Shown in pieces: positions 190 to 41,806 of a stretch of DNA of 41,907 bases. Within the stretch, counting starts at the first letter, position 1. Each line of letters opens with the position of its first letter. The notes beneath the pieces are model-generated. The model worked only from the letters and a program-made list of their open reading frames with translations. It searched no databases and had not been told where the DNA came from. The DNA comes from Fulvivirga imtechensis AK7. Lineage in GTDB: Bacteria; Bacteroidota; Bacteroidia; Cytophagales; Cyclobacteriaceae. The translations under genes and the position numbers were made by a program. The stretch lies in assembly GCF_000331535.1 (NCBI RefSeq), contig NZ_AMZN01000093.1:1-41907 (forward strand), in the 5' to 3' direction.

Positions 190-364
190 TAATTAGTGGC
201 TTTAAGAAGACTCTAAGTGGTTTTAAGAAAACGCTACCACCAAAGGGCGGGACGAAGTCCCAAAAAGCGGAGTTCCGTAACAGTTGTTACAGTTGTCGGG
301 AAAAGCACTTTTGGGACAAGTGTAACGCAGACAGACATTGACGTTTTCTTACAGACACTAACTA
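190..364 (+). mobile_element. Short inverted-repeat element, copy 1
   Basis: The element body is 196-358 (163 bp). Its right end reads GTTTTCTTACAGACAC, the near-complement of the left ends of the other copies; its own left end is degraded (GTGGCTTTAAGAAGAC). It is flanked by TAATTA (190-195) and TAACTA (359-364), five matches of six. The left interior resembles copy 4 (AAAGGGCGGGACGAAG) while the right interior resembles copy 3 (ACAGTTGTCGGG), so it looks mosaic. It abuts the end of the CHAT gene and supplies the last base of that gene's TAG stop. No transposase is encoded, so it is a MITE-like passenger. Confidence 0.8.
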
Positions 365-3192
365 CCTACTAATACAAATCCACCCCAGTAATAAGGTTCT
401 TTATATTTGATTTTTAAGGCTAGCTGCGCTTCCTTAAAGGCCTGTTGTTTATTACCTGTCTTTAACCAGCCAGCATAAAATTTCGTCATTAGTTCCTGGG
501 TGGCTTCATCGTCAACCTTCCACAAGCTCATGATCAAGGCTTTGGCGCCTGCCGCAAGAAATGCGCGTTGCAAACCGTAAACCCCTTCCCCTGCCTTAAC
601 GTCTCCCACTGCCGTTTCACAAGCGCTTAGCACCACCAGGTCCGTGTTGTCCAAAGACATATTCATGGCTTCATAAGCGGTAAGAACACCGTTATTGCTA
701 CTTTCAAATGTATTTTGCCGTTCACCCGTTGTGGATCCGGCCCCCGCCAGCAACAGTCCGGCCCTCAGCAAAGGGTTATCGCGAGCACTCTCGGAACTAA
801 TACCAAATACTTTCCCTTGTTGCAAATGCTTGTCTTCCAAAAAATAGCCATGGGTGGCAACATGTAGCACTTTCGGATTTGCAATGGCTTTAAAGGATTG
901 TTCGCTGGCGTTGGCACCACTTAATGTCGATATTTTGTATGCCTTGCTTGTCAAAAGTCTGCCTATGTTAGTTACTTCGGCTTTGGTTCCCGGTAACGGT
1001 GGGATATCACCATTTCCATATTCCGGAAAGCCGACCAGCACAGCGGATTTGGTTTGACTGGCAGACTTATTATTCCCAATTAAATCCCTGCTATTCGCCA
1101 ATAGGGTGAGGTCATATTCTTGTATTAAATAATTACCTGATGGATTTCGCAAAGTATTCAAACTGATTTGGTTATATACCCCATCCAACGATAAGTATAG
1201 ATGCCTGGCTTCTTTTGTCAGGGGGCGGATAGGCGCCCAATACTGCGGGTATGAATATTCGTCAGTTATTTTTTGATGAATAGCGTTATTGTAGTACTTA
1301 AAATACCTTCCCTCCAGATGATCTCCATTGTCTATCACTACCTTGGATGGAAAGTCAGCCGTAGGGTTCAATGCCAATACCAGATACCTTGCACCGCTAA
1401 AGGTTTTATCATAATTTCTGAACCTAATCACCTCAATGGCTACTTCTGATTGCTTCAGCCTGGCTTTTACTTCTTTATATGTTACATTATTCAGTTGATA
1501 GCCCTCTGAAAAGATCTCAGATCTCTGTGACAACTCCTTTTCAGTTGCATTTGCCGCTTTTTCCAGAGAGTCACGATTTATTTTCTGTTCCACCAGTTCT
1601 TCCCGGGAATAGGAATATAGCTTTGCCAGCTTCTCCTTTTGGTCAAGCCACATTAAATATTTGCTGATGAGCTCCTTGTCATCGCCTCCCAGTATCTTTT
1701 TCTTTATTTTATTAGTAGAGTTAAGCAACAGTCCTTTTGTTGCTATATGATAGTCATAGACATCACCTAGCAAAGGATGGGTTTCGGAAGGCGCTTCTGC
1801 TGCGAAAGCATAAAAACGCTCAAACCTCGGACGAAGCTTGTCCCAATACCTCGTCTTTTCGGCTTCACTCATGGGTGGGAAGTACCTGTTGATAAATGAC
1901 AGAGACTGTTGTAATGACTCCTTGTAAAGACTCTCAGCCTTCTCTCTTTCACCTTTCTTCCAGTACAAAATGGCTATATCCTCGGTAGACTGCACATATT
2001 GAGGGTGCTCGGTGCCAAGGAGTTTCTTACGAATATCTAATGTTTCGCTCAACAAAGGTTCAGCAGCACCAAAATCGGCCTGAAATCGATAAAAATTACC
2101 CAGATCACTGATTGCTGCTGCATATAATGGGTGTTCTTTTCCAAACTTGCGTTCATAGATGCCTATGGCTTCCTTCAATAGGGTCTCCACCTGGTCATAC
2201 TTACCCATTTCCATGTAAAGGGCGGCCAGATTATTTAACACATGAGCATAATCGGGATGCCGTTTACCAAAGCGTCTTTCCTTTAGGGCGATCAGGTCTT
2301 TATAGGTGGTTTCGGCCAGATCATATTTGCCCATTTCCTGGTAAAGCAATGCCAGATTAGAAATGAATTTCTGATGGTTTCCTGACTTTGAGCTTTGCAG
2401 ACCGGCAGAAATATCAATAGCCTTTTTTAATACCACTTCGGCCTGATCATATCTACCCATCGCCTGGTAGATCATCGCTTCATTATTTTGAGCGATCGCA
2501 AAGGGCATGCTGTTATTGCCATGTATATCAAGTAGTATGGCTGCGGCTTGAACAATGGAGGCCTCAGCTTCGGTATACCGGCCGGTTTCCTTGTGCAATA
2601 CAGCAAGGTTGTTGAGCGAAGCGCCATATCCCGTGCTTTCTTCACCACGGCTTTCCTTTTCCTGGTTTAAAGCCTGCAGTATAAACTCTTCAGCAGCAGT
2701 GTACCTTCCTGTAGTACTATATAGCAAACCCAGGTTGGATATCACCTTGGGATAATTGATATCATCGGTGAGCTCGTGAGTTTCGTATTTTTCCTTTGAT
2801 GCCAGAAGCAGACGTTCAGCCATCTGGTAATAACCACTTGCATATAAGCCCTCACCTCTGTCCAGCAGGTCGCGGGCCTTTTCTCTCTCCTCCTTCTCAT
2901 CCTCTACCTTACCAAGGTTAGAATATATTTTTAAGAACCCTTCACCCTTTTCCCTGAGATCATACAGCCCTGAGTTATCATTCAGAGAAATTGCATAACT
3001 GAAGCTGGTAGAATCAAAGTTACTTCTGGCCTCGTCCAATCTTTCGGCCGTCAGATCCCTTAGCTTATTCAGACCATCACCTGATGCGAAATTTTTAGCT
3101 TTGTCCTTCAACATTTTTCCCAACTGGCCAAATGTATCGGAGGACGGCAAAATAAGGAGAACCAGCAGCAACAAAGTATAAAGCCGTTTCAT
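358..3192 (-). CDS. Exported TPR-CHAT caspase-like protein
   Basis: An exported protein of about 944 residues. From the ATG at 3192 it begins MKRLYTLLLLVLLILPSS, a signal peptide; an ATG at 3207 would add only MIYNV and falls where transcription should start, so 3192 is preferred. Roughly residues 95-440 are repeated TPR units, many with the pattern Y..AE.LLK.A. The last 300 residues form a CHAT domain with both catalytic motifs: HVATHG (His near 781) and LSACETAVG (Cys near 858), followed by GVYGLQRAFLAAGA. CHAT domains are clan CD caspase-like peptidases; the TPRs probably bind a partner or substrate. It stands alone, with its own promoter and terminator. No CRISPR genes accompany it, so a craspase-type role is not suggested. 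The substrate is unknown. Confidence 0.9.
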   Translation of the reverse strand: MKRLYTLLLLVLLILPSSDTFGQLGKMLKDKAKNFASGDGLNKLRDLTAERLDEARSNFDSTSFSYAISLNDNSGLYDLREKGEGFLKIYSNLGKVEDEKEEREKARDLLDRGEGLYASGYYQMAERLLLASKEKYETHELTDDINYPKVISNLGLLYSTTGRYTAAEEFILQALNQEKESRGEESTGYGASLNNLAVLHKETGRYTEAEASIVQAAAILLDIHGNNSMPFAIAQNNEAMIYQAMGRYDQAEVVLKKAIDISAGLQSSKSGNHQKFISNLALLYQEMGKYDLAETTYKDLIALKERRFGKRHPDYAHVLNNLAALYMEMGKYDQVETLLKEAIGIYERKFGKEHPLYAAAISDLGNFYRFQADFGAAEPLLSETLDIRKKLLGTEHPQYVQSTEDIAILYWKKGEREKAESLYKESLQQSLSFINRYFPPMSEAEKTRYWDKLRPRFERFYAFAAEAPSETHPLLGDVYDYHIATKGLLLNSTNKIKKKILGGDDKELISKYLMWLDQKEKLAKLYSYSREELVEQKINRDSLEKAANATEKELSQRSEIFSEGYQLNNVTYKEVKARLKQSEVAIEVIRFRNYDKTFSGARYLVLALNPTADFPSKVVIDNGDHLEGRYFKYYNNAIHQKITDEYSYPQYWAPIRPLTKEARHLYLSLDGVYNQISLNTLRNPSGNYLIQEYDLTLLANSRDLIGNNKSASQTKSAVLVGFPEYGNGDIPPLPGTKAEVTNIGRLLTSKAYKISTLSGANASEQSFKAIANPKVLHVATHGYFLEDKHLQQGKVFGISSESARDNPLLRAGLLLAGAGSTTGERQNTFESSNNGVLTAYEAMNMSLDNTDLVVLSACETAVGDVKAGEGVYGLQRAFLAAGAKALIMSLWKVDDEATQELMTKFYAGWLKTGNKQQAFKEAQLALKIKYKEPYYWGGFVLVGS

Positions 3193-3211
3193 CACATTAT
3201 AGATCATTTAC

Positions 3212-3219
3212 CAAAGGTA
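3212..3219 (-). promoter_or_regulatory. -7 promoter box of the CHAT gene
   Basis: The minus strand reads TACCTTTG, a full match to the Bacteroidota -7 consensus TAnnTTTG, 20 bases before the ATG at 3192. Transcription should start near 3205-3207, which is why the first ATG (3207) is unlikely to be used. No clear -33 TTG was seen. Confidence 0.45.
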
Positions 3220-3277
3220 ATATATAGAAAAAGATATTCATCATTATTAAAAAGCTTTTCGTAATTTGGCGCCCCTT

Positions 3278-4033
3278 ATGAGACTTCTTAAGAAAATTAT
3301 TTCTAAAATATACCTGGTATGGGTGCTGTTGGTATTCAATGTATTCATGCTCATCTTCCTTCCTATTATTGTACTTCCCATATTGCTGGGCGAAAAATAT
3401 GGCAATGTCACTTATTTTGGGCTTTATCTTTGGTCATGGGTATTCAGCCGATTGACATTCATTGGCTACAAGATCGAAGGCCGGGAGAATGTTGATAAGA
3501 GAAAGTCATATATCTATACCAGTAATCATACATCGTTTCTTGATGTGCCAGGGCTTCGCCTGGGCATTCCTACTCAATTTCGGCCATTAGCCAAAAAAGA
3601 ATTGTTAAAAATACCCGGTTTTGGCCTGATTGTGAGAGTAGCCACCATAGTAGTGGACCGCTCAAACAATGAAAGCCGAAAGAGAAGTGTAAAAAGGTTA
3701 AAGCAGGCATTGGATAGTGGTATATCCATCTTAATATTTCCGGAGGGCACTCAAAATCGAACGGACCAGCCGCTGCAACCGTTTTATGATGGCGCTTTTC
3801 GCATCGCCATTGAAACAAATACTCCCATTATTCCTATTGTGGTGATCAACGCTGGCAATCTTATGCCTCCCAGCAAACTAGACATTAAACCTGGCAGAAT
3901 CAAAGTTATCTTTGGCCAGGAAGTAGCTGTTGAAGGATATGGGTTAAGCGACCTGCCTTTCCTGAAAGAAAAGGTCTTCAATGCTATGAAAGATATCGTG
4001 GAGAGGGAATCGGGAGATAAATACCTCAAGTAA
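3278..4033 (+). CDS. plsC: 1-acyl-sn-glycerol-3-phosphate acyltransferase
   Basis: 251 residues from ATG 3278; a TTG at 3266 would add MAPL but is less likely. The family adds the second acyl chain to lysophosphatidic acid at the inner membrane, making phosphatidic acid for phospholipids. Residues 12-37 are a hydrophobic membrane segment. The acyltransferase motifs are in order: NHTSFLD (83-89, the HX4D catalytic pair), the PTQFRPLAKKEL substrate region, FPEGTQNR (154-161), and a following PIIPIVV strand. Length is normal for the family. It is a single gene diverging from the CHAT gene. The reaction is inferred from the family; the exact acyl donor is not visible. Confidence 0.92.
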   Translation: MRLLKKIISKIYLVWVLLVFNVFMLIFLPIIVLPILLGEKYGNVTYFGLYLWSWVFSRLTFIGYKIEGRENVDKRKSYIYTSNHTSFLDVPGLRLGIPTQFRPLAKKELLKIPGFGLIVRVATIVVDRSNNESRKRSVKRLKQALDSGISILIFPEGTQNRTDQPLQPFYDGAFRIAIETNTPIIPIVVINAGNLMPPSKLDIKPGRIKVIFGQEVAVEGYGLSDLPFLKEKVFNAMKDIVERESGDKYLK

Positions 4034-4036
4034 AAA

Positions 4037-4064
4037 AGTTGACAATCGGCAGAAGCAGTTGGCA
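4037..4064. repeat. Short quasi-repeat spacer (GGCAA type)
   Basis: The stretch GTTGACAATCGGCAGAAGCA followed by GTTGGCAAC resembles the spacers at 32861-32889 and, inverted, 4929-4965. All are built from short units such as GGCAAT and GGCAAAAGCA. It lies just past the plsC stop; no function is apparent. Confidence 0.5.
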
Positions 4065-4101
4065 ACTATTTGACTCATCAATCTCATACGTTCCTATTGA
4101 T

Positions 4102-4129
4102 CCGGAAAAACCGGGCTTTTGTTACCCGG
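4102..4129. terminator. Bidirectional terminator between plsC and the pirin gene
   Basis: On the minus strand CCGGG (4125-4129), a 9-base loop and CCCGG (4111-4115) are followed by TTTTT, which suits the pirin gene. On the plus strand CCGG-AAAAA-CCGG (4102-4114) is followed by GCTTTTG and could serve plsC. The two hairpins share CCGG and are mutually exclusive. Confidence 0.5.
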
Positions 4130-4153
4130 AAAAACATTTGTAATGAGAGGCTT

Positions 4154-4867
4154 TTAACTTGTCATAGGCACTTCGATAAATAAAATTTCAGAATCTTTGA
4201 TAGCTTTTATAGCAACACCGGATACTTCAAAGACACCAAGTCCGTCTCTTTTTGTAAGAGATTCTCCTGCCACCTCTACCTCTCCCTCTATTATAAAAAT
4301 GTATACTCCGTGGTTATCGTCTCTCAGTTTATAGTCGGTTTCAAAGCCTTCCATAAAAGTGGCTAATGAAAAATAGGCATCCTGATTTATCCATAGGGCC
4401 CCTCCTGATGAGTCCGGGCTCACCACCGTCTTTATCCTGTTGACCCTTTGTTTAGGATCGAAATTCTGTTGCCCGTAACGCGGGTTTATATTTCTTTCTT
4501 TGGGGTAGATCCATATCTGAAGAAAATTAACACTTTCCGTGGCGCTATGGTTATATTCAGAATGCATGATACCGGTACCTGCAGACATGATCTGCACGTC
4601 ATGAGTACGGATCACAGAAGAGTTTCCCATACTATCTTTATGCTCCAGGGCACCTTTTAACGGTATAGATACTATTTCCATGTTATCATGAGGATGGGTG
4701 CCGAAGCCGCCGCCTCCCCCCACTACGTCATCATTAAGCACTCTTAGCATACCAAAATGCATGCGTTCAGGATTGTGATAACCTGCAAAACTAAAAGTGT
4801 GGTGGGAATCCAGCCAACCGTGGTTGGCGTGTCCCCGTGTCTCTGCCCGGTGAAGCACTTTTCTCAT
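4154..4867 (-). CDS. Pirin family protein (bicupin)
   Basis: 237 residues from the ATG at 4867; an upstream extension exists but starts with non-coding repeat sequence, while MRKVLHRAETRGHANHGWLD is the usual pirin beginning. Pirins are metal-binding cupins, some with quercetin 2,3-dioxygenase activity. The metal ligands are visible: GTHPHDNME (His58, His60) and MHSE (His102, Glu104). The N-terminal HTFSFAGYHNPERMHFG signature is complete. The C-terminal half is a second, less conserved cupin (VYIFIIEGEVEVAGESL). The substrate cannot be told from sequence. The upstream 270 bases contain a repeated 17-bp core that could be an operator. Confidence 0.92.
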   Translation of the reverse strand: MRKVLHRAETRGHANHGWLDSHHTFSFAGYHNPERMHFGMLRVLNDDVVGGGGGFGTHPHDNMEIVSIPLKGALEHKDSMGNSSVIRTHDVQIMSAGTGIMHSEYNHSATESVNFLQIWIYPKERNINPRYGQQNFDPKQRVNRIKTVVSPDSSGGALWINQDAYFSLATFMEGFETDYKLRDDNHGVYIFIIEGEVEVAGESLTKRDGLGVFEVSGVAIKAIKDSEILFIEVPMTS

Positions 4868-4903
4868 GTGTATATAAATAGTATTGAGTATTAAGATAGC
4901 TCG

Positions 4904-4965
4904 AAGACCGAAGTCGGAAGTCCGAAGTTCCCTTTTGCCTATTGCCTTTGCCAACTGTCGATTTA
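4904..4965. repeat. Quasi-tandem intergenic spacer
   Basis: Two simple repeats abut. 4904-4928 is built from GAAGACC, GAAGTCG and GAAGTCC units; 4929-4965, read on the minus strand, is built from GTTGGCAAAGGCAATAGGCA and matches the spacer at 32861-32889. It lies upstream of the pirin start and has no coding potential. Confidence 0.55.
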
Positions 4966-4975
4966 GTCGTTCTAC

Positions 4976-5121
4976 GTTGGTATAACTAAGAATGACTAAA
5001 GTTTATGCTCATTTCATCTGTATATAATTTTTAATTTCAATGGCCACATGGAATTCGCTATAAACTTTATTCATCCGCGGTTGGTATAATTTAGAATGAC
5101 TAAAGTTTATGCTCATTTCAT
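4976..5121. repeat. 42-bp direct repeat pair plus an inverted core copy
   Basis: Bases 4976-5017 and 5080-5121 are 42-bp direct repeats differing at two positions. Their shared core GAATGACTAAAGTTTAT (4990-5006 and 5094-5110) occurs a third time inverted at 5060-5076 with two mismatches. The set lies between the pyruvate carboxylase stop and the pirin start, both on the minus strand, so it could be an operator array for the pirin gene or a decayed small repeat. Confidence 0.75.
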
Positions 5122-5138
5122 ATATTTTCGGACAGACA

Positions 5139-8100
5139 CTACTCCATTTCCACCACCATATCATCCTGCTGCACCATCTCCCCTGCCGGCAGGTATACTT
5201 TCTTGATCTTTCCATTAGCCGGAGCGCTGATGGTGGTTTCCATTTTCATTGCCTCAATAACAAATAACGGTGCATTTTCCCGTACTTCCTCACCTTCTTT
5301 CACTTTTACTTCGGCAATCCTGCCCTGTAACGGTGCTCCTATCTGCTTTTCACCAGCAGCTTTTGCGTGAGCAACTTTGTTTGTTTTGTAGCTTTGGTCT
5401 CTAACCTCCAGCACTCTGGCCTGCCCGTTCATCTCAAAGTAGACCTTGCAGACACCATTCTCATCAGGCATCGACTTATACAGCTTTTTAATTATGATAG
5501 CCTTACCTTTTCCTATTTCGACAAAAATCTCCTCATTATTTTTCAGTCCATATAAAAATGACAGTGTTGGCAGACGCCAAACCTCTCCGTAGTGCTGCCA
5601 ATGATCGTAAAGGTCTTTAAATACTTTAGGGTACAGCTTATAGGAAAGGAAGTCCAGCTCATCGCAATATTCATCAAATTCCTCCTGAAATTGTTCGAAT
5701 TCTTTATCAAAATCAACAGGTTCCAGGTGTGCATTTGGCCTGTCAGTAAATGGTTTTTCTCCTTTCAATATTATTTTGGTAAGCTGCTCGGGAAAACCAC
5801 CCGGGGGCTGACCCAGATCTCCTTTAAATAAGCTTACCACAGACTCCGGGAATGACAGGGTGTGGCCTTTTTGAAGAATATCGTCTGCTGTCAGGTTGTT
5901 GGAAGTCATGAACAATGCCATATCGCCCACTACTTTTGATGAAGGAGTTACTTTCACCAGGTCTCCAAACAGGTCATTGACTATGGCATAGTTTTCTTTG
6001 ACCCTGGCAAACTGATCCTCAAGCCCCAGCCCTCTGGCCTGAGGTCTCAGGTTAGAATATTGACCACCGGGAATTTCATGCTCATATACCTCAGCCGTGC
6101 CCGCTTTTAGCTCAGATTCAAAGGGGTAATAGAACTCACGAACGTCTTCCCAATAGTTACCATATTTGTTCAGCGACTTCAGATCAAACTTATGCTCCCG
6201 TTCATGCCCCTCCAGCGCCGCCAATAACGAGTTGAAATTAGGCTGCGATGTCAAGCCGGACATAGAGCTGATGGCTACATCCACTACATCAACACCTGCA
6301 TCTATGGCTTCAAGGTAGGTGGCACATTGAAGGCTCGAGGTATCATGCGTATGCAGATGAATGGGCAGATCCACAGCTTTTTTCAACTCACTGATAAGCA
6401 ACCTGGCGCTTCTTGGTTTAAGAAGGCCAGCCATATCTTTAATAGCTAAAATGTGAGCACCCTCATCTTCCAATTGTCTCGCCAGGTCCAGATAATATTG
6501 CAGGTTATATTTCGGGTTTTCCTTATAAAGATCTCCGGTGTAGCATATACAAGCCTCCGCCAGTGAATTGGTTCGTTCCCTCACCGTACGAATGCTCACT
6601 TTCATAGCCTCTACCCAGTTGAGAGAATCAAATATCCTGAAGATGTCAATACCGGTCTCAGCGGTTTTTTCAACGAATTTTTCGATCAGGTTATCAGGAT
6701 AAGCCTTATATCCCACTCCATTGGAGCCTCTGAGTAGCATTTGCAGCAGCAGGTTAGGCATAGCTTGCCTGAATAATTTTAGCCTATCCCACGGATTTTC
6801 ATGGAGAAAGCGCATGCACACATCAAAGGTAGCTCCTCCCCAAACCTCCATGGAAAAGATATTCGGGTGATTTTTGGCGTATCCCTCAGCCACCTTCAAC
6901 ATATCCAAAGTCCTGACCCTGGTAGCTAGCAATGACTGGTGAGCATCACGGAAAGTAGTGTCTGTAAAATGGATCCTGGGCTCGTTTTTCAGCCATTCTG
7001 TAAACCCTTCGCGCCCGAGTCTTTCCAGCTTATCTTTGGTGCCTTCCGGATAGTCGCCCAGTCTGTCAAAGACAGGCACCTTCGGTTCTCTGAATACTTT
7101 ATTCGGATCAACATGTTTTACATCAGGGTTGCCATTTACTGCCAGGTTGCCCAGGTAATTGAGAATCTTGGTGCCTCTGTTCAGCCTACGTGGCATATCG
7201 AATAACTCCGGGTGATCGGCAATGAAATTAACGGTGGCCTGGCCTGAGTAAAAAACGGGGTGTGAGATCACATTCTGCAAAAAGCCAACATTTGTTTTAA
7301 CACCCCTGATCCGAAACTCACTAAGCGCACGGTCCAGCCTCTCGGATGCCCCTTTAAGCGTCCTCCCCCATGACGATACCTTCACCAATAATGAATCAAA
7401 AAACGGAGATATCGTCACTCCTGCATAACAATTACCAGCATCTAATCTGATCCCGAAGCCATTGGCGCTTCGGTAGGCTATTATAGTGCCATAGTCAGGC
7501 TGGAAATTATTATGGGGGTCCTCAGTAGTAACCCTGCATTGAATGGCGTACCCATTACACTGCACACCACTTTGATCTTTGATAAATATACGGGGATCGG
7601 CAAGATCATACCCTTTGGCTATCAGTATCTGAGAGCGTACGATATCCACACCGGTAACCTCTTCTGTAATAGTATGCTCTACCTGAATACGCGGATTTAC
7701 TTCTATGAAGTATATATTCTCATCACTATCCACCAGGAACTCCACTGTTCCCACGTTGTTATAGTTAACTTCACGGGCTATGGCCAGTGCATAGCCATAT
7801 AATTTGTCCTTAGCCTCCTGACTGAGGGTGACACTGGGCGCCACTTCCACCACCTTCTGAAATCTGCGCTGTACCGAACAATCCCTTTCATATAAATGAA
7901 CAATATTGCCATAGTTATCGCCCATGATCTGCACCTCTATATGCTTGGGGTTGTCTATATACTTTTCAAGAAAAACAGTATCATCACCAAAAGCCTTGCC
8001 GGCTTCCTGACGTGCTTCGTCAAAAGCCCTTTTCAGTTGCTCATCATCGCGCACCACTCTCATCCCCCGGCCTCCGCCTCCGGCTGCTGCCTTCACCATC

Positions 8101-8585: not shown

Positions 8586-8692
8586 TTATTCTCTTTGGAT
8601 TAATTTCAAACGTTTTAGATGCTGAAAAATAAAACTTTTACAGTGTCTTAACAAAGAAATTCAGTTGTGGTTAAGATTTTATTATTGGCCTC

Positions 8693-8815: not shown

Positions 8816-8955
8816 GAACACGGGATGCCAGCCCAGGCGACAACAATGGAAGGTATTGGTCCACATAAAATAGGCATTACAATTGGCGCCTTCTTCAACA
8901 TCTCATCAAATTTCGGGCGTATTATTTGACAGGTGTTTACGAAATGCTGTAAATT

Positions 8956-9113
8956 TACATAGTGTCTCTAAGAAAACGCCAAATGTCTGTGTTATGCTCG
9001 TCCCAAAAACTCACCCCGACAACTGTACGGGACTCCAGCTTTTTGGCACTTCACTAGCCTTGACCTTAACGTTTTCTTAAAGCCACTTAGAGTTTTCTTG
9101 CAAACACTACATA
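8956..9113 (-). mobile_element. Short inverted-repeat element, copy 2 (inverted)
   Basis: The element body is 8962-9107 (146 bp), inverted relative to the other copies. The ends GTGTCTCTAAGAAAAC and GTTTTCTTGCAAACAC are imperfect inverted repeats. It is flanked by a perfect 6-bp duplication TACATA (8956-8961 and 9108-9113). Compared with copy 3 it lacks nine bases of the central ACAGTTGT doublet and has a small deletion in GAGCATTTTTGGG. It ends 19 bases before the start of the next gene, so it has probably displaced that gene's original upstream region. No promoter was recognised in its right end. Confidence 0.85.
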
Positions 9114-9723: not shown

Positions 9724-9737
9724 CTCCGCCTGACGGG

Positions 9738-32889: not shown

Positions 32890-32965
32890 CTGGATTATCA
32901 ATTTATTTTACAACTTTGGAGCAATTATAAATCCTTATTTGTTGAGTGACGTAAGTTAACCATTA

Positions 32966-33979
32966 ATGAGTCTGAAAGTTTTAGTCATACGTTTTTCATC
33001 TATTGGAGATATTGTGCTCACCACACCCGTAGTGCGTAACCTTAAAACTCAATTGGATGACCCTCAGATACACTACTGCACTAAGGAACAATTTAGGTCA
33101 ATTGTAGAGCCCAACCCCTATATTGATAAAATACATTATCTAAAAGACAGTCTTGGCGACCTTATTAAAGCGTTGAAAACGGAAAAATTTGACTATGTTA
33201 TTGATCTGCATCGTAATTTAAGAACACGGATAATTAAAACCAGACTCGGAGTAAAAAGCTACTCATTTGATAAACTCAACTGGGAAAAGTGGCTGATGGT
33301 GAACCTCAAGATCAACAAACTACCCAACAGGCACATCGTAGAAAGATATATGGATACGGTAAAACCATTGGGAGTTAAGATCGACAGCCTCGGCCTCGAT
33401 TACTTCATCCCGGAAAAGGATATAGTACCTTTGGAGTGGCTACCGGAAACGCATAGAAAAGAATACATAGCCTATGCCATAGGCGCCCAACACAATACAA
33501 AAAAGCTTCCTCTGAAACGGATGATCGAACTGTGTGATAAGATCAATAAGCCCATCGTTCTACTGGGAGGCCCGGGAGATGCAGAAACAGGCGAAGCCAT
33601 TCGGCAGTTTTTCGAAAAAACAGAGAAGTCCGCTCCTATGGAAGAAGGATTGATGCGGATGAACAAAAAGACCATCATTTACAATGCCTGCGGAAAATAC
33701 AATTTAAATCAGTCTGCTTCACTGGTAAAACAAGCACGCTACGTTTTCACACATGATACAGGGCTGATGCATATTGCAGCGGCTTTTAAAAAAGAGATAT
33801 TCAGCATCTGGGGAAACACCATTCCTTTATTTGGGATGTACCCTTTTAGAACAAAATTCACAGTTTTTGAAAATAACAAGCTAGACTGCAGGCCTTGTTC
33901 TAAAATAGGTTACGAAAAGTGTCCGAAGGGGCATTTTAAATGCATGAATAATATCAATTTTGACTTTTACTTGCCATAG
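32966..33979 (+). CDS. Glycosyltransferase family 9 protein (heptosyltransferase-like)
   Basis: 337 residues, start ATG 32966. The N-terminus MSLKVLVIRFSSIGDIVLTT is the GT9 signature, and the C-terminal donor site is present (YVFTHDTGLMHIAAAFKKEI then SIWGNTIPLFGMYPF). GT9 enzymes add heptose or related sugars to the lipopolysaccharide core at the inner membrane. Four cysteines near the end (LDCRPCSKIGYEKCPKGHFK) could bind metal. It stands alone; no other LPS gene is adjacent, so the sugar and acceptor are not known. Confidence 0.92.
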   Translation: MSLKVLVIRFSSIGDIVLTTPVVRNLKTQLDDPQIHYCTKEQFRSIVEPNPYIDKIHYLKDSLGDLIKALKTEKFDYVIDLHRNLRTRIIKTRLGVKSYSFDKLNWEKWLMVNLKINKLPNRHIVERYMDTVKPLGVKIDSLGLDYFIPEKDIVPLEWLPETHRKEYIAYAIGAQHNTKKLPLKRMIELCDKINKPIVLLGGPGDAETGEAIRQFFEKTEKSAPMEEGLMRMNKKTIIYNACGKYNLNQSASLVKQARYVFTHDTGLMHIAAAFKKEIFSIWGNTIPLFGMYPFRTKFTVFENNKLDCRPCSKIGYEKCPKGHFKCMNNINFDFYLP

Positions 33980-34239
33980 TTATTTGGAAAAGCCGCGGGG
34001 AATTATTATAATTGACCTCATGAAGGCTCTAAATGCACCTCTATACAGATTCATTTCCATCTCAGCAAAACCACTGAGCCTTCTTAATCTTCAGCCCATT
34101 TTTGATTGTTAGACTTACATTTTCAGGATCAATCAGTACGTAAGGTTTTTTACGGATTTTAATTTCTAATTCTGATGATGTATGAAGTCTACTATATCTA
34201 AGGTAGTTGGTATATCCATTTTTGACATATACCTTTTTC
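33980..34239. other. Intergenic region with a weak minus-strand open frame
   Basis: No convincing gene. On the minus strand 34062-34235 is open for 57 codons without a start (YVKNGYTNYLRYSRL ... SELEIKIRKKPYVLIDPENV ... KKAQWFC) and looks protein-like, but it is AT-rich and Lys-rich and may be chance; it could be the end of a decayed gene. On the plus strand an ORF from 34182 runs through element copy 3 to 34538. Confidence 0.25.
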
Positions 34240-34407
34240 TAAATAGTGTTTGTAAGAAAACTCTAAGAGGCTTTAAGAAAACGTTAAGGTCAAGGCTTGT
34301 GAAATGCCAAGAAGCTGGAGTCCCGTACAGTTGTCACAGTTGTCGGGATGAGCATTTTTGGGACGAGCATAACGCAGACATTGGCGTTTTCTTAGAGACA
34401 CTAAATA
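34240..34407 (+). mobile_element. Short inverted-repeat element, copy 3
   Basis: The element body is 34246-34401 (156 bp). The ends GTGTTTGTAAGAAAAC and GTTTTCTTAGAGACAC are inverted repeats with two mismatches in 16. It is flanked by a perfect 6-bp duplication TAAATA (34240-34245 and 34402-34407). The centre has TCCCG...CGGGA enclosing two ACAGTTGT units. Element plus one duplicated target is 162 bp, 54 codons, so the insertion keeps the frame of the ORF 34182-34538. It lies about 230 bases before susC. Confidence 0.87.
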
Positions 34408-34560
34408 AATTAACCGTTTCTGGCAGCCCTCGGGAAGCGTTCTATTCCGTTGCTTTCGGAAAATCATTGAAGCCTATTCCTGCCCAGGCAGAAAAAATCC
34501 TGGGACTACGCAACCTGCAGCCTGTTTTCGACTGTTAGTTGACCGGTCTTCCCTATTGCT

Positions 34561-34580
34561 TATGCTCGTTTGAGAGCATA
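34561..34580 (+). promoter_or_regulatory. Small hairpin upstream of susC
   Basis: TATGCTC and GAGCATA form a perfect 7-bp inverted repeat with a 6-base loop, 50 bases before the susC ATG. The sequence between is AT-rich. It could be an operator or a leader hairpin. The rest of 34408-34630 shows nothing defined. Confidence 0.3.
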
Positions 34581-34630
34581 CCAAAAACCCATTTTTCTTA
34601 AAAATTTATTTAAAACAAAATAAGTATGTT

Positions 34631-37600
34631 ATGAAACACATGTTTACTATTATTTGTATTTGTTTGGTATCGCTGGGTGCGTATGCTCAAACAAATATCT
34701 CAGGTAAGGTCACCTCGGCAGAAGATGGAGAACCTTTACCTGGTGTAAGTGTAATTGTGAAAGGTACTACACAAGGTACAGTCACAGATGTTAACGGTCA
34801 ATACACATTGTCCGCTCCTTCAGCAGGAACACTTGTTTTCTCGTTTGTGGGCATGGCATCTCAGGAAGTTACCGTGAATGGACGATCTGTAATTGATGCA
34901 CAGCTTGAGCCAGACATCAAACAACTATCCGAGGTGGTGGTAGTTGGCTATGGAACCCAGATCAAGAGTGACTTAACGGGTAATATAGCGCAGGTAGATG
35001 GCGAAGTAATTGCAAATGTACCTGTTCCCAGTTTTGAACAGGCCATACAGGGCCGATCGGCTGGTGTTTTGGTGAGTTCACAAAACGGCAAGGTGGGACA
35101 AGGCATCAATATACGTATCAGGGGCGGTTCATCAATAACAGCAAGCAATGAACCGCTTTATGTGGTTGATGGTATTCCCATCACTGCTGATAACCAGTCG
35201 CGTACGGGTGCGGCAACTAACCCACTGGCAGACATTAATTTTAATGATATAGAGTCTATTGATATTCTGAAGGATGCATCTGCCGCTGCAATATATGGTT
35301 CCAGGGCAGCGAATGGTGTTGTTCTGATAACTACCAAAAAAGGAAAGCAGGGAAAAACTCAATTTACTGCCAACTTTCAATATGGCGTCAGCAGTCCGAC
35401 CGGAAAGAGAGAATGGCTAAATGCTAAGGAGTATGTTGAATTATATAGAGAGGCAGCATATAACAATGATCTGGCAGAGGGATATGACCCTATCAATGAT
35501 CCTGGCGATTATCCTGGCTCGTGGCTGGAGTATATGGAGGAAACCTTTGACTTTCTGGCCGGAGACACCGACTGGAGGCAGTTAGAAAATGATACGGATT
35601 GGCAAAAGGAGGCATTCCAGGATGCCCGGCTAACTGCTTTTGACCTATCCGCAGCGGGTGGAACAGAGAAAACGAGGTTCTATGCCAGTGGATCGTACAG
35701 CGATCAAGATGGTATCCTGATCGGCAATAATTTCAAAAGAATATCCGGTCGCCTCAACCTCGACCATACAGCGACAGACAAATTGACCTTTGGTTTAAAT
35801 GTTGGTATCTCAAAAACTACTAATAACCGGGTGACGGAGGACAATCAATTTTCAACTCCTTTGCAACTGGTGGCACAATCTCCTTTGACTCCGGTAAGGG
35901 ACAAGGAAGGAAACTTATATGACAATGCACTCAACCCGGCCATGTTCTATTACCCTGCCACTGTTGAACTGGAAAATTCCCATTTTGTATCGACTGTATT
36001 TAGAAATTTGGTCAACACGTATGTTAGCTATGACATTACAGATGCCCTAACGTTAAAAGGAGAATATGGCTTCGACCTGCTGACACAGTATGAAGATCGT
36101 TACCAAAATTCCAAAACACAAACAGGACTTGATGTAAATGGATACGGCACATCCCGATGGGTAAGGATTTTCAACAACACCTCACGAATCTATTTGAATT
36201 GGAATAAGGAGTTGGGCGTTAGTAATTTCGATATTATTGGTGGATTTGAATATCAAAAGTCTACCAGGGATCAGACAAATGTTGAAGGGCAGGGCTTTCC
36301 GATCGACAATCTTAAGACTGTTGCCTCGGCCGCAGAGATTGTGGCCGGATCAGGTACTTTAAACGAATTTTCTTTTCTGTCGTATTTTGCACGAGCCAAT
36401 TACAAGCTTCATGGCAGATACCTGCTTTCACTGAGTGGCAGGGTTGACGCTTCCTCCAGGTTCGGTGAAAACAATCAATATGGATTTTTCCCTGCAGCAT
36501 CGGTAGGCTGGATAATCAGTAATGAGCAATTCTTATCCGACAACAGCTTCTTATCATTCCTAAAGCTGAGATCAAGTTATGGATTGACAGGAAATGCTGA
36601 AATCGGCAATTATGACCATTTCGGACTCTATCGCCCGGTAAGCTATGACCAAACATCCGGTCTCAGGCCCTCGCAGATCCCAAATCCTGACCTGGAATGG
36701 GAAAAAACCGCTCAACTCGACATTGGTTTAGATTTCGGTTTAATGAACGATAGACTTTCCGGGGAGCTTGATTACTACATAAAAAAGACCAGCGGGCTAT
36801 TGTTGGATGTACCTGTTCCCGGCACTACAGGGTTTGAATCCCAGACCCAGAATATTGGAGAGCTGGAGAATCAGGGAATAGAACTTGTATTAAACTATAA
36901 TGCCATAGCGACAGGCAACTTCCGTTGGACTACCTCTGTGAACCTGGCAAAAAACAACAACAAAATCACCCAGCTAAGTGGTGACCAGGAGATAATAGAC
37001 TCGGGAAGTTCCAGGTGGTTGAATGTAGTCAAGGTCGGTGAGCCCATTGGAGTGTTTTATGGGGTGGAATATGCCGGAGCAGACCCGGATAATGGAGATG
37101 CACTGTTCTATGTAAATGGAGAAACTCCCGGAGAGACAACGAATAACTTTAACAGTGCCAACAAAGTAGTATTAGGGAACCCTACCCCTGATTTTATTGG
37201 TGGCTGGAGCAATAACATCAGCTTTAAAGGATTGGAACTAAACTTCCTGTTCCAGTGGGCTACAGGTAACAAGATCTTTAATGGTGGCGGAGGTTTTATG
37301 TCGGCTAATGGCAGATATGAAGACAACCAGACTAAAGATCAGCTTAGGAGATGGCAAAAGCCTGGTGACATTACCGATATACCCCAGGCAAGGTTATACG
37401 AAAACAATGGTGCACAAGCTTCCAGCAGATACTTATCAGATGGCTCATATATCCGTCTTAAAAATATAACTCTGGCCTACAATCTGCCCGTCAATCTAAT
37501 CCAAAATATAGGTTTTAATACGGCACGCATATATGTATCAGGGCAAAATGTACTCACATTTACAGACTATGACGGCTGGGACCCGGAAGTAAATACTGAT

Positions 37601-37690
37601 TACCGGGCCTCTAATATCAACCTGGGCAATGATTTTTATGCTGCTCCGCAAGCCAGGACATTTACTGTTGGAGTAAAAGTTGGATTTTAA
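34631..37690 (+). CDS. SusC/RagA-family TonB-dependent outer-membrane transporter
   Basis: 1019 residues, signal peptide MKHMFTIICICLVSLGAYAQ. Order: CarboxypepD_reg-like domain (ISGKVTSAEDGEPLPGVSVI ... TLVFSFVGM), TonB-box region (QLSEVVVVGYG), plug (about 120-230, with PLYVVDGIPI and IESIDILKDASAAAIYGSRA then NGVVLITTKKG), and a 22-strand barrel ending in FTVGVKVGF with the terminal Phe. It imports oligomers across the outer membrane using TonB energy, with the SusD partner encoded 19 bases later. No TonB, sigma or anti-sigma regulator is adjacent. The substrate is not visible in the protein; the neighbours point to a peptide. Confidence 0.97.
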   Translation: MKHMFTIICICLVSLGAYAQTNISGKVTSAEDGEPLPGVSVIVKGTTQGTVTDVNGQYTLSAPSAGTLVFSFVGMASQEVTVNGRSVIDAQLEPDIKQLSEVVVVGYGTQIKSDLTGNIAQVDGEVIANVPVPSFEQAIQGRSAGVLVSSQNGKVGQGINIRIRGGSSITASNEPLYVVDGIPITADNQSRTGAATNPLADINFNDIESIDILKDASAAAIYGSRAANGVVLITTKKGKQGKTQFTANFQYGVSSPTGKREWLNAKEYVELYREAAYNNDLAEGYDPINDPGDYPGSWLEYMEETFDFLAGDTDWRQLENDTDWQKEAFQDARLTAFDLSAAGGTEKTRFYASGSYSDQDGILIGNNFKRISGRLNLDHTATDKLTFGLNVGISKTTNNRVTEDNQFSTPLQLVAQSPLTPVRDKEGNLYDNALNPAMFYYPATVELENSHFVSTVFRNLVNTYVSYDITDALTLKGEYGFDLLTQYEDRYQNSKTQTGLDVNGYGTSRWVRIFNNTSRIYLNWNKELGVSNFDIIGGFEYQKSTRDQTNVEGQGFPIDNLKTVASAAEIVAGSGTLNEFSFLSYFARANYKLHGRYLLSLSGRVDASSRFGENNQYGFFPAASVGWIISNEQFLSDNSFLSFLKLRSSYGLTGNAEIGNYDHFGLYRPVSYDQTSGLRPSQIPNPDLEWEKTAQLDIGLDFGLMNDRLSGELDYYIKKTSGLLLDVPVPGTTGFESQTQNIGELENQGIELVLNYNAIATGNFRWTTSVNLAKNNNKITQLSGDQEIIDSGSSRWLNVVKVGEPIGVFYGVEYAGADPDNGDALFYVNGETPGETTNNFNSANKVVLGNPTPDFIGGWSNNISFKGLELNFLFQWATGNKIFNGGGGFMSANGRYEDNQTKDQLRRWQKPGDITDIPQARLYENNGAQASSRYLSDGSYIRLKNITLAYNLPVNLIQNIGFNTARIYVSGQNVLTFTDYDGWDPEVNTDYRASNINLGNDFYAAPQARTFTVGVKVGF

Positions 37691-37709
37691 ACTTTAAACT
37701 AGAAAAGTG

Positions 37710-39065
37710 ATGAAAACATTAAAAAATATATTGGCTGTGGTGGCGATTATCGGTCTCCTTATTGGCTGTAATGAAGAACTAGACCTAAGACCTCCGCAAG
37801 ATGTTGATGCGGATCTGGCATTAAGTAGTGATGCCAACGTAAAAACTACTCTACTGGGCGCATACGATGCTTTGAGTGAAGGCGATCTTTTAGGAGGAAG
37901 CCTTCAAAGAAATGCTGAATTGCTCGGACAAAAGAGTCATATACAGTTCTCTGGTACGTACAATGCACCTGCTGAAATATGGAGAAAAGACATTACTACG
38001 GTAAATCTGGATGTAACCGAAGTATGGCTGGGTGGTTATGATGTCATCAACATTGTCAACAATGTCATTTCCGCTCTAGAAGTTGTCGATGAAGATGATA
38101 GAGACCGCATTTCAGGTGAAGCCCATTTCATTCGGGGGCTGGTGCATTTTGAACTGGTGAAATTCTTTGCTCAACCCTATTCGGCTGGCAATGTAGCCTC
38201 TAACCTTGGTGTACCACTGATACTTGAGCCAACAAGAGGAATTTCGGAAGAAAATTATGTTGCCAGAGCTTCAGTTGCAGACGTTTACGACCAAGTGATC
38301 CGTGATCTTCAAATAGCCGAAGCTAACTTACCCTCTGATAATGACGTATACGCCAACAAAGCAGCCGCAGCCGCGGTGCTCAGCCGTGTTTACCTTCAAC
38401 AGTTGGCATATGAAGAAGCTCGTGATGCGGCGAACCGAGCCATCGGCCATACCAATGGACTGTTTTCTTTGGCGAGCGGCTACGCAGCACTTTACAACAA
38501 CTCTTCTAATTCAAGTGAAGATATATTTGCGATCCAGGTCAATACTCAGGATGGGGTTAACAATCTGCAACTATATTTTGCCGCAGCAGGTTTTGGCGGT
38601 CGTGGAGATATAGAAATTCAACCTGGTCAGTTAGCACTTTATGATCCCGGCGATCTTAGGTTGAACCTGTACTACGATGACCCCGCCACAGGAGAAACCA
38701 GGACAGGCAAGTATATCAATCAATTTGCCAACGTTCCGTTTATCAGGTTAAGTGAGTTATATCTTACAAGGGCAGAGGGGAATATCCGGCTCGGTGAAAC
38801 AGTGGGAGATACTCCGGAAAATGACCTTTTTCAAATACAGGAAAGAGCCGGGTTACCATTTAACGCAACGCCCACAGTAGATGATGTTTTATTAGAAAGA
38901 AGACGTGAGCTGGCCCATGAGGGGCATGCCATCCATGACTACAAAAGGTTGCAACTTCCCGTGGATGGATTACCTTTTGATGCTAACGAACTGGTATTCC
39001 CAATTCCACAACGTGAGATGAACGTAAATAAAAACCTGAAGCAAAACGCAGGATACGGAGGATAA
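37710..39065 (+). CDS. SusD/RagB-family outer-membrane lipoprotein
   Basis: 451 residues from ATG 37710; a GTG one codon earlier is also possible. The lipobox LLIGC places the lipidated cysteine at residue 20. Typical SusD features: CNEELDLRPPQDVDADLALS, GEAHFIRGLVHFELVKFFAQ, VYDQVIRDLQIAEANLP, and the C-terminal RLSELYLTRAEGNIRLGE and LVFPIPQREMNVNKNLKQN. It caps the SusC barrel on the cell surface and binds substrate. It is shorter than many sugar-binding SusD proteins (about 500 residues or more). Confidence 0.96.
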   Translation: MKTLKNILAVVAIIGLLIGCNEELDLRPPQDVDADLALSSDANVKTTLLGAYDALSEGDLLGGSLQRNAELLGQKSHIQFSGTYNAPAEIWRKDITTVNLDVTEVWLGGYDVINIVNNVISALEVVDEDDRDRISGEAHFIRGLVHFELVKFFAQPYSAGNVASNLGVPLILEPTRGISEENYVARASVADVYDQVIRDLQIAEANLPSDNDVYANKAAAAAVLSRVYLQQLAYEEARDAANRAIGHTNGLFSLASGYAALYNNSSNSSEDIFAIQVNTQDGVNNLQLYFAAAGFGGRGDIEIQPGQLALYDPGDLRLNLYYDDPATGETRTGKYINQFANVPFIRLSELYLTRAEGNIRLGETVGDTPENDLFQIQERAGLPFNATPTVDDVLLERRRELAHEGHAIHDYKRLQLPVDGLPFDANELVFPIPQREMNVNKNLKQNAGYGG

Positions 39066-39089
39066 TTTTTATTTTTTGTTTAGGTTAAG

Positions 39090-39151
39090 GGCTGTATCGG
39101 GAGGATCGTTGTCATGAATTTGCAATGATGACAAAAACTTCTGATGCAGCC
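39090..39151 (+). other. Nested inverted repeats between susD and the cyanophycinase gene
   Basis: GGCTGTATC (39090-39098) pairs with GATGCAGCC (39143-39151) with one G-U pair, and inside it TTGTCAT (39109-39115) pairs perfectly with ATGACAA (39128-39134). It starts 24 bases past susD and is probably transcribed. It has no U-tract. The alternative ATG at 39144 lies within its right arm, which supports the later start at 39171. It may stabilise the susCD message or modulate the downstream genes. Confidence 0.5.
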
Positions 39152-39170
39152 ATTCTTATATCAATACACT

Positions 39171-40034
39171 ATGACTAATAGATTTCAAATACTGTTTCTG
39201 TTGGCGCTATTGGCGTGTACACGTGGACCGGAGCCAACAAACACCCCAATGGAGCGTCCTGCGGGCAAGCTCTTTATCATCGGTGGTGGTAAACGACCTG
39301 CCGCAATGGTTAAGGAACTGGTGGAACTATCAAAAATTGATAAGGAAGGCTATGGTATCATCCTGCCTATGTCCAGCGAAGAACCTGATTCATCCGTCTA
39401 CTACGCCAAAATCCAGTTTGCAGACCTCGGAATAACGAATGTTACAGGCATGAATTTCACTAAAGATCAGCCTGCAACACCACAGCAGTTAGACTCAATA
39501 AAAGGGGCTCATCTCATTTACATTTCAGGGGGTGATCAGAACAAGTTTATGCAGGTAGTTTACCAAACTCCCATAGAGGTCGCTATTAAAGAAGCCTTTA
39601 AAAATGGAAGTGTAGTTGCAGGTACAAGTGCCGGAGCCGCTGTAATGAGCAAAAAAATGATCACCGGAAATGAACTCAAGTATCCACTTTATGAGGAAAC
39701 CTTCCGCAACATTGAATCGAACAACATAGAGATCAAGCCGGGTTTGGGACTGATAGAAACTGCCATTATCGATCAGCACTTCATCAAAAGAAGCAGGTAT
39801 AACCGGCTGATCTGCGCAGTCATTGAATATCCCGGCATGCTGGGTATTGGTATCGATGAGTCAACTGCCATTATTGTTGAGGGTGATTCTGCCCGAGTCA
39901 CAGGTGAATCCCAGGTGATCCTGTTTAGAAACCCCGACCATTCGCAGGCAGATCACAACGGGTTGCTTGGCGCCAACGACTTACGGCTGGATGTGTTGCT
40001 ACCTGGCGCAAAATTTTCTCTTTCCAATAAATGA
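39171..40034 (+). CDS. Cyanophycinase-like S51 peptidase, lipoprotein
   Basis: 287 residues from ATG 39171; the ATG at 39144 would spoil the signal. MTNRFQILFLLALLAC is a lipoprotein signal with Cys16, so the enzyme is anchored in an envelope membrane. Family S51 features: GKLFIIGGGKRPAAM, YISGGDQNKF, nucleophile elbow AGTSAGAAVMS (Ser153), DQHFIKRSRYNRL (His203) and LGIGIDESTA (Glu230), in the pattern of cyanophycinase and longer than typical peptidase E. Cyanophycinase cuts poly-Asp with Arg side chains into beta-Asp-Arg dipeptides. The SusCD pair upstream and the transporter downstream fit a peptide-uptake locus. Peptidase E-like Asp-peptide cleavage is the main alternative. Confidence 0.85.
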   Translation: MTNRFQILFLLALLACTRGPEPTNTPMERPAGKLFIIGGGKRPAAMVKELVELSKIDKEGYGIILPMSSEEPDSSVYYAKIQFADLGITNVTGMNFTKDQPATPQQLDSIKGAHLIYISGGDQNKFMQVVYQTPIEVAIKEAFKNGSVVAGTSAGAAVMSKKMITGNELKYPLYEETFRNIESNNIEIKPGLGLIETAIIDQHFIKRSRYNRLICAVIEYPGMLGIGIDESTAIIVEGDSARVTGESQVILFRNPDHSQADHNGLLGANDLRLDVLLPGAKFSLSNK

Positions 40035-40102
40035 TTAAGTAAGCAAGCAAGTCTCTTCGATTCTTGTTTTTAAGAAAGGAAAGGCTCGAAATTAACACAC
40101 AC

Positions 40103-41494
40103 ATGAAATTTAAATTACCGGATACGCTCATTCTGCTACTCATTATTTTAGCGGCTTTTACATTGTTGACCTGGATCATCCCGGCAGGTGAATTCGATAG
40201 ACAAATAGTTGATGAACGAGAACTAGTCACCCCCGGCAGCTATCATGAAACAGAAAGCAACCCCGCAGGCTTTTTTGATTTTATCCTGGCCCCTATTAAG
40301 GGGTTTATCTCCTCAGCACAAATTATAGTGTTCATCTTTTTTGTAGCCGGTTCTTTCGGCATCATCAACAAAACAGGAGCCATTGAAGCCGGGTTGCAAT
40401 CGGTGGTACGGCTGAGCAGACAACGGCCTAAAAGCAAAAAGTTTGTCATCCCTGTCTTAATGATGCTGTTTTCTTTGGCCGGAGCAACCTTCGGCATGAG
40501 CGAAGAAGTGCTTGTATTTATTCTTATCACTCTTCCTTTAAGCTTCGCGTTGGGTTACGATTCAATAGTGGGTGTAAGTATCCCCTTCATCGGGGCCGGA
40601 GCTGGTTTTGCGGGTGCATTTCTGAATCCATTTACCATCGGCATTGCACAGGGTATTGCGGAGCTCCCCCCCTTTAGCGGCTGGGAATACCGGCTGGTAG
40701 TTTGGGCGCTATTTACCATCACAGCCATTGTATTTGTTTTGATATATGCCAACAGGATCGAAAAAACACCCTCTGCAAGTCCAATGCATGAGATTGATAA
40801 AAAGTCCAGGTACAAGGATCATGAAGGTGTAGAGGCCACCTTTAACCTGAAGCATAAAGCGGTGGTCTCCATCTTCTTGTCGGGACTCGTTTTGCTTATC
40901 GTGGGTGTAAATCAGTGGGATTGGTATATCAATGAGATCTCAGGGCTGTTTCTGATCCTGGGGGCCATATCAGCTTTGGTCTACCGGATGCCGGTGAGCG
41001 ATGCAGTAGAAGCTTTTGTGCAGGGCGCAGCAGAAATGATCAAAGTTACTTTTGTTATTGCCATTGCCAAGGGGATATTGATAGTAGCTTCTGAAGGAAT
41101 GATCATCGACACCATACTTCAGGCTTTATCCACTGCCGTTAAGGACTACCCAAAAGCGGTCTCAGTGGAGTTGATGTTCTATATGCAAAGCTTCCTTAAT
41201 TTCTTCCTGCCATCCGGAAGCGGACAGGCGGCTCTCACTATGCCAATCATGGCTCCCCTGAGTGATATATTAGGCATTTCGCGACAAACAGCGGTACTGG
41301 CATTCCAACTTGGTGACGGACTTTCTAATATCATCATTCCTACCAGCGGTGTAACCATGGGAGTACTAACTATAGCCAACATCCCTTATCAGAAATGGTT
41401 TAAATGGGTATTGCCATTAATGATCATTTTCTTCCTGCTGGCGATGCTGGTTTTGCTTCCTCCGGTGTTGTTTTTTGACTGGTCGGGAATGTAA
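40103..41494 (+). CDS. YfcC-family membrane transporter
   Basis: 463 residues from ATG 40103; an upstream TTG at 40064 is unlikely. It is an inner-membrane protein with about 12 helices. Family features: PDTLILLLIILAAFTLLTWI, IPAGEFDR, NPAGFFDFILAPIKGF, GATFGMSEEVLVFI, IPFIGAGAGFAGAFLNPFTI, FFLPSGSGQAALTMPIMAPL and LGDGLSNIIIPTSGVTMGVL. YfcC-type carriers are related to C4-dicarboxylate and basic amino-acid carriers; the substrate is inferred only. It lies 68 bases after the cyanophycinase gene on the same strand and probably imports its products (dipeptide, Asp or Arg). Confidence 0.9.
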   Translation: MKFKLPDTLILLLIILAAFTLLTWIIPAGEFDRQIVDERELVTPGSYHETESNPAGFFDFILAPIKGFISSAQIIVFIFFVAGSFGIINKTGAIEAGLQSVVRLSRQRPKSKKFVIPVLMMLFSLAGATFGMSEEVLVFILITLPLSFALGYDSIVGVSIPFIGAGAGFAGAFLNPFTIGIAQGIAELPPFSGWEYRLVVWALFTITAIVFVLIYANRIEKTPSASPMHEIDKKSRYKDHEGVEATFNLKHKAVVSIFLSGLVLLIVGVNQWDWYINEISGLFLILGAISALVYRMPVSDAVEAFVQGAAEMIKVTFVIAIAKGILIVASEGMIIDTILQALSTAVKDYPKAVSVELMFYMQSFLNFFLPSGSGQAALTMPIMAPLSDILGISRQTAVLAFQLGDGLSNIIIPTSGVTMGVLTIANIPYQKWFKWVLPLMIIFFLLAMLVLLPPVLFFDWSGM

Positions 41495-41650
41495 ATTGAC
41501 TTTTTGCTGAGCTAACGAAAACTATTGAACCTGACAGAAGGACTGCCAATAAAGAAGTTGCACCATAGCTGTATCAAAGACACGTGACCATTAGTGGTTT
41601 CGTAGTTCCTGTAGTAGACAACAACCTCGGGCCTTGTGAACTGGATACTT

Positions 41651-41806
41651 TAATTAGTGTTTGTAAGAAAACTCTAAGTGGCTTTAAAAAAACGTTCCCG
41701 CCAAAGGGCGGGACGAAGTTCCAAAAAGCGGAGCGTACTGAGGTACGAGAGCATTTTTGGGACAAGCGTAACGTAGACATTGGCGTTTTCTTAGAGCCAC
41801 CAATTA
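41651..41806 (+). mobile_element. Short inverted-repeat element, copy 4
   Basis: The element body is 41657-41800 (144 bp). The left end GTGTTTGTAAGAAAAC is canonical; the right end GTTTTCTTAGAGCCAC has one extra change. It is flanked by TAATTA (41651-41656) and CAATTA (41801-41806), five of six. Its centre differs from copies 2 and 3 (AAAGGGCGGGACGAAG, CGTACTGAGGTACG stem) and resembles the left part of copy 1. The gap 41495-41650 before it shows nothing defined. The group II intron end begins 38 bases beyond it. Confidence 0.83.

Follow-up and report, generated by a model that had tools for sequence, protein, structure and literature searches.

Four related units of 144 to 163 bp, scattered over a 41,907-nucleotide stretch of the Fulvivirga imtechensis AK7 genome (contig NZ_AMZN01000093.1; the whole stretch is called the window below), are copies of a miniature inverted-repeat transposable element (MITE) that duplicates a TANNTA target. 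The element has 16-bp ends, GTGNNTNTAAGAAAAC, present as imperfect inverted repeats on both sides, and at one end a second, inner copy of the same motif lies 21 bp inward (the doubled end) in each of the four copies. The mover is likely a transposase of the ISNCY family (ISDol1 group); that the units are MITE copies served by such a helper acting in trans is put at a probability of about 0.83. A sequence-only reading of the window had proposed a non-autonomous element inserted with a 6-bp stagger at TANNTA sites, and a survey of 86 copies in the wider genome bears this out.

Target duplication and flanks

The survey covered 838,903 bases out of 6.7 Mb, chosen partly around known copies, and copies were called by their ends with no use of the duplication in choosing them. 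It yielded 86 distinct copies 74-467 bp long, mostly about 120-165 bp (72 between 118 and 166 bp); 75 belong to the main type and 11 were set aside. The 6-mers on the two sides are identical in 47 of the 86, as compared with 8.4 on average and at most 16 when partners are shuffled 1000 times, differ by at most one mismatch in 64, and have the form TANNTA on both sides in 54. At exactly six offsets the left and right flanks are 0.76-0.87 identical; the 20 other offsets give 0.16-0.37.

Main-type copies have a mean identity to their consensus of 0.847. Copies nearer the consensus more often have a perfect duplication (29/37, versus 13/38 of the others), as expected if duplications decay with age. 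The doubled end is found in 60 of the 75, and 40 of these 60 have a perfect duplication, compared with 2 of the 15 remaining main-type copies, a gap that misplaced outer ends may explain in part.

Beyond the six bases the flanks are mostly unrelated. Flanks aligning further had been named in the sequence-only reading as the sign of segmental duplication; when 100-bp flanks were compared, 84 on the left and 85 on the right, four pairs matched, two of them short, inverted and 28 bp long, and not a single pair of copies was alike on both sides. Empty sites, the other check proposed there, were sought with 90 joined-flank queries (82 on distinct copies). Three of the four junction-spanning matches are the query's own locus, and the fourth is a diverged paralogous site that lacks the element and has a single 6-mer, at 72% identity; this part of the check gave a paralogous site and no orthologous one.

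The same ends and TANNTA duplications occur in a 342-bp element and in others near 150 bp, although their interiors look unlike by eye, which implies that the ends are what moves. Among longer elements in the first 20 stretches and the window, end pairs with an exact duplication were limited to 189, 342, 413 and 467 bp, the 413-bp copy containing an insert, and no end-paired element of 500-7000 bp was found in the window and 40 stretches. Within the 467-bp copy (L041, 5003-5469) another repeat, with inverted ends CCATAGCCGTTAAC, is nested inside the MITE. A second MITE type with the same ends has a CGTCATTGCGAACGAAG-like interior (L103, 8001-8153; L037, 13836-13992; L096, 12333 onward), a motif that we take to be a repeat of many bacteria.

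Abundance in the AK7 genome

The doubled left end has 126 matches in the F. imtechensis genome and none in the control, and therefore the genome is taken to hold at least about 126 copies. With up to 3 mismatches allowed, the right-end pattern has 392 matches (reversed control, 0), which include inner motifs and hence give no copy number, and blastn gave at least 41 matches, with 40 of 358 candidates scored. Copy 3 of the window served as the query for genome searches, as the sequence-only reading had advised for the genome and its relatives. The prospect of many copies held for the genome itself; among the 58 relatives examined, the full MITE at E <= 1e-5 occurred in one, which is that same genome, and in no other.

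Candidate ISNCY-type parent elements

A complete candidate parent is found in a Bacteroidota metagenome-assembled genome (JAUXUD010000012.1, locus L261). This element is 1850 bp long, has the ends GTGTCTCTAAGAAAAC and GTTTTCTTAATGGCAC, is flanked by TAAATA and TAATTA, and contains a frame of 513 codons with its first Met at residue 11. The protein (P0001) scores 395 bits to the profile NF033593, transpos_ISNCY_1 (cut-off 325), and 28.6 bits to DDE_Tnp_1 (cut-off 23). Between such ends, the NF033593 cut-off is passed only here.

Partial elements point the same way. In a Balneolaceae sequence (L223), GTGTCTTTAAGAAAAC with TATTTA accompanies a C-terminal homologous fragment of 264 aa that scores 213 bits to NF033593, below the cut-off. 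A search with the L261 protein gave matches at E <= 0.001 in 7 of 16 genomes: G165, G017 and G497 (five pieces), with weak matches in G009 and the three genomes of genus g68. In G165 the right end occurs at 39 places, and at contig breaks in the 30 loci examined; two contig starts combine TANNTA and the N-terminus of the transposase with a more diverged left end, GTGTCTCTTTTAAATC, which departs from the motif at 4 positions. In G017 a C-terminal piece of the transposase lies with TAATTA and GTGTCACTAAGAAAA, which has 0 mismatches to the motif, and in G497 ends with 2 mismatches and TANNTA stand beside N- and C-terminal pieces. Judged from these sequences, such ends with TANNTA appear beside ISNCY-type transposase pieces in four lineages besides L261 (L223, G165, G017 and G497) and, weakly, in a fifth, genus g68 (G282, G273 and G222), where one end with TAAATA accompanies an N-terminal match at E about 3e-4; one g68 copy was examined for a second end and has none.

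At none of 13 G165 contig starts examined does the other end of the insertion sequence appear. Seven of them (L191, L192, L194, L195, L196, L198 and L200) carry another multi-copy repeat, which ends in GGGTAACCCTA.

The proposed mechanism would run as follows. Acting in trans, a DDE transposase from the ISDol1 group of the ISNCY family would bind the GTGNNTNTAAGAAAAC ends and cut out or copy the element; the GTG ends would be joined to a TANNTA target cut 6 bp apart, and repair of the two gaps would leave the TANNTA duplication. The helper gene may have been lost, may lie within contigs that read N, or may be unassembled.

Candidate movers in the window and the genome

None of the four units is nearly long enough to hold a transposase gene, and the earlier statement that the window holds no transposase agrees with searches of the window contig for ISNCY, DDE_Tnp_1 and rve, which gave no match; Pfam covered 8 of the 39 listed open reading frames. 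Elsewhere in the genome, DDE_Tnp_1 (PF01609) has one match, at L111, and the surrounding 3.7 kb contain no such ends when up to 2 mismatches are allowed; rve (PF00665) likewise has one, at L112, with none in 3.3 kb. Both were rejected as parents. The NF033593 profile, run on 15 genomes of the genus, had matches in seven, none above the cut-off and none in F. imtechensis. An IS1595-like gene beside one such end in G017 (contig C279), which we name from its own sequence, was also rejected: it is decayed and has no left end at up to 5 mismatches.

The sequence-only reading had left the mover as either a transposase or an integrase, and had proposed looking for a transposase gene with the same ends. 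An enzyme that cuts 6 bp apart agrees with the ISNCY-type parent seen in other genomes. The integrase option gains no support from the sole rve match, which lacks such ends at up to 2 mismatches in the 3.3 kb around it; the gene with the same ends was found in the L261 element and not in the F. imtechensis genome.

The four copies in the window

On rereading the letters of the window, all four units and all eight flanking 6-mers stand where they had been placed, with two pairs perfect (copies 2 and 3) and two with one mismatch (copies 1 and 4). The strandless duplications are read directly from the sequence. Copy 1 (196..358, plus strand, 163 bp) has its doubled end on the left, with the inner motif at 217-232, and lies between TAATTA (190..195) and TAACTA (359..364), which differ at one base. 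Copy 2 (8962..9107, minus strand, 146 bp) is inverted, with its doubled end on the right and the inner motif at 9071-9086, between TACATA at 8956..8961 and TACATA at 9108..9113. Copy 3 (34246..34401, plus strand, 156 bp; inner motif 34267-34283), for which folding adds a hairpin, lies between TAAATA at 34240..34245 and 34402..34407, and copy 4 (41657..41800, plus strand, 144 bp; inner motif 41678-41694) between TAATTA (41651..41656) and CAATTA (41801..41806), with one mismatch. At up to 3 mismatches the end motif GTGTTTGTAAGAAAAC has 11 matches in the window (shuffled mean 0.58, largest 4) and CGTTTTCTTAGAGACAC has 10 (shuffled mean 0.15, largest 2), a few of them falling outside the four units.

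A CHAT/TPR gene (358-3207, minus strand) terminates exactly at the junction of copy 1, its stop codon TAG (358-360) being formed by the TA of the target and the first G of the MITE. Tandem GTTAATT repeats occupy the contig start (1-47). The contig end (41812-41907) resembles the start of a group II intron, and has no Rfam match at gathering scores.

Hairpin, doubled end and spread across phyla

The same MITE, with doubled end and hairpin, is present in Bacteroidota and Balneolota. Folded as RNA, copy 3 forms a long hairpin from the inner motif to the other end, at -54.1 kcal/mol as compared with a shuffled mean of -36.2 (z -4.88). Twelve main-type copies were used for a structure alignment: the four of the window and eight chosen from Balneolales, Rhodohalobacter, Saccharicrinis and two family genomes. 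They align along their length with the doubled end, the exception being Rhodohalobacter, whose outer motif has decayed. The consensus hairpin has 90.6% of its cells paired (shuffled 84.0%, slid structures at most 46.5%), both-side changes occur in 14 of 34 pairs (shuffled 7.0, slid at most 7) and there are 27 compensating cells (shuffled 9.4, slid at most 9); none of 500 shuffles reaches any of these three values. Because the structure was derived from the same alignment, because related rows inflate the counts, and because template switching could act on such a palindrome, these compensatory changes do not prove an RNA.

The doubled end is probably a second transposase-binding site. A bolder proposal is that the MITE is a long-lived structured element and not a simple deletion derivative, in which two transposase sites tend to sit at one end in both phyla and the fold is kept by compensatory changes, being itself needed either in an RNA or, as folded DNA, in the substrate of an ISDol1-group transposase that tells the two ends apart; we offer this tentatively and think it rather doubtful.

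The combination of duplication plus end was sought in 295 family genomes and 390 order genomes. It occurs in 15 of the former (reversed pattern, 2 matches) and in 9 of the latter (reversed pattern, 10 matches); chance may account for several of these, which are single matches with one mismatch. Scanning a named genome collection for TANNTAGTGTCNNTAAGAAAACM brought up 64 stretches, which come almost entirely from Bacteroidota or Balneolota, with one from Clostridia; F. imtechensis is not among them, and the scan may leave it out. For the 67 matches in these stretches, a partner end lies within 300 bp in 41, and the 6-mer is identical in 18 (shuffled mean 3.3, maximum 9), a figure in which three loci are counted from both ends.

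Weighing the explanation

Several observations weigh against a MITE moved by an ISNCY helper. The flanking 6-mers differ by two or more mismatches in 22 of the 86 copies, which is put down to decay or misplaced ends, and two right-right flank pairs match (88% over 77 bp and 76% over 58 bp) while their left flanks do not. The joined-flank queries found no true orthologous empty site. Neither the L261 protein nor the profile detects an ISNCY transposase in the F. imtechensis genome, where 40 small contigs read only N. The duplication of L261 itself has one mismatch, and the elements of L223, G165, G017 and G497 are seen only as pieces. Finally, by eye and without alignment, the MITE interior shares nothing with the parents beyond the ends, so that its origin from a parent by deletion is not established.

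The most serious competitor keeps the MITE and changes its mover, which could belong to some other transposase family (for instance IS1595, IS481 or a different rve integrase) and also make 6-bp TANNTA duplications. Most IS481-family members are described as making 6-bp duplications in the relevant passage of PMC10045372, and the decayed IS1595-like gene of G017 does adjoin one such end. That gene lacks a left end at up to 5 mismatches, however, the sole rve and DDE_Tnp_1 matches of the genome lack such ends in the surrounding 3.3 and 3.7 kb with up to 2 mismatches allowed, and ends with TANNTA recur beside ISNCY sequence in five lineages; this mover is considered unlikely. It is less probable still that the units are structured elements that the host has kept under selection for a function as RNA or in regulation, transposition being only their origin. 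The both-side changes and compensating cells of the hairpin would be in keeping with such a role, as would the same architecture in two phyla, but the average identity of the genomic copies to their consensus fits decay, template switching can keep the symmetry of a palindrome, and no Rfam family is found in the window at gathering scores.

An ancient segmental duplication, or a hairpin family of the repetitive extragenic palindrome (REP) or bacterial interspersed mosaic element (BIME) type, spread otherwise than by transposition, would account for a scattered hairpin unit with an interior conserved across phyla, and for the two pairs of copies that share one flank. Yet exactly six flanking bases are repeated, in most copies, no pair shares both flanks, and interiors unrelated by eye lie between the same ends with the same duplications, which together make this hardly credible. 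Transposition of a MITE by an ISNCY (ISDol1-group) transposase in trans is thus preferred.

Comparison with known systems

The element is a new MITE family of a known kind; no earlier account of it was found in the open literature among the matches listed, including for related orders. The searches gave no paper on TANNTA and none that pairs Fulvivirga with a MITE, and among the matches listed ISNCY is not linked to a MITE (PMC3898611, in the passages concerned, only names ISNCY). The findings give the unclassified, little-studied ISNCY family (ISDol1 group) a simple target rule, TA-N(2-4)-TA, and connect it with a MITE family that occurs across Bacteroidota and Balneolota. Both can be used in annotation, the rule predicts landing sites of such elements, and the doubled end offers a direct test of how an ISDol1-group transposase reads its ends.

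For the ISDol1 group, ISfinder gives duplications of 6-7 bp. The autonomous ISNCY relatives examined encode a DDE transposase of 444-513 aa. Seven regions were taken from plasmid relatives and six of them were scanned for ends; four of the six copies fit TA-N(2-4)-TA. The ISRm17-type copies L285 and L290 have GTGCCC ends and TAGTCTA duplications, and L288 and L287 have the duplications TAGCCTA and TAGTACTA, their GTT or GAT ends being chosen by eye among equal placements. The ISRm17-type L286 is imperfect, and L284, the Methylotuvimicrobium relative, shows no clear ends. L285 to L288 score above the NF033593 cut-off. A genome of the same genus as F. imtechensis (G005) has 12 matches of a distant ISNCY relative, two copies of which (L292 and L298) have GGCCTCC-type ends and, read by eye, the duplications TAATTA and TATATTA. 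Viral contigs gave two distant fragments.

The pertinent part of PMC10194956 assigns ISRm17 of Sinorhizobium (NF033593) to the ISDol1 group of ISNCY. This group and the MITE have in common a TA-N(2-4)-TA duplication and GT-type ends. ISRm17 has GTG ends and TA-N3-TA duplications, as compared with GTG ends and TANNTA for the MITE, which differs further in that it has no transposase gene, has a 16-bp end unlike the GTGCCCGTCCATAAAC of ISRm17, and duplicates 6 bp and not 7. REP and BIME repeats are not known to have a target duplication, unlike this family with its six repeated bases. Correia elements (NEMIS), as outlined in the sections of PMC3898611 concerned, resemble the MITE in their length of 100-155 bp, their inverted repeats and their want of a transposase, but they duplicate TA and have 26-bp repeats, whereas the MITE repeats six bases (TANNTA) and has 16-bp ends. 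MITEAba12 of Moraxellaceae is also a non-autonomous element derived from an insertion sequence, in other hosts (PMC6382973, in the part that describes it). BrickBuilt of Porphyromonas gingivalis is a MITE of the same phylum, with 19 copies in one strain; by the description in the relevant part of PMC4596501, its 12-bp ends are IS5-like and its duplications vary in length and sequence, which sets it apart from the TANNTA-duplicating family of F. imtechensis.

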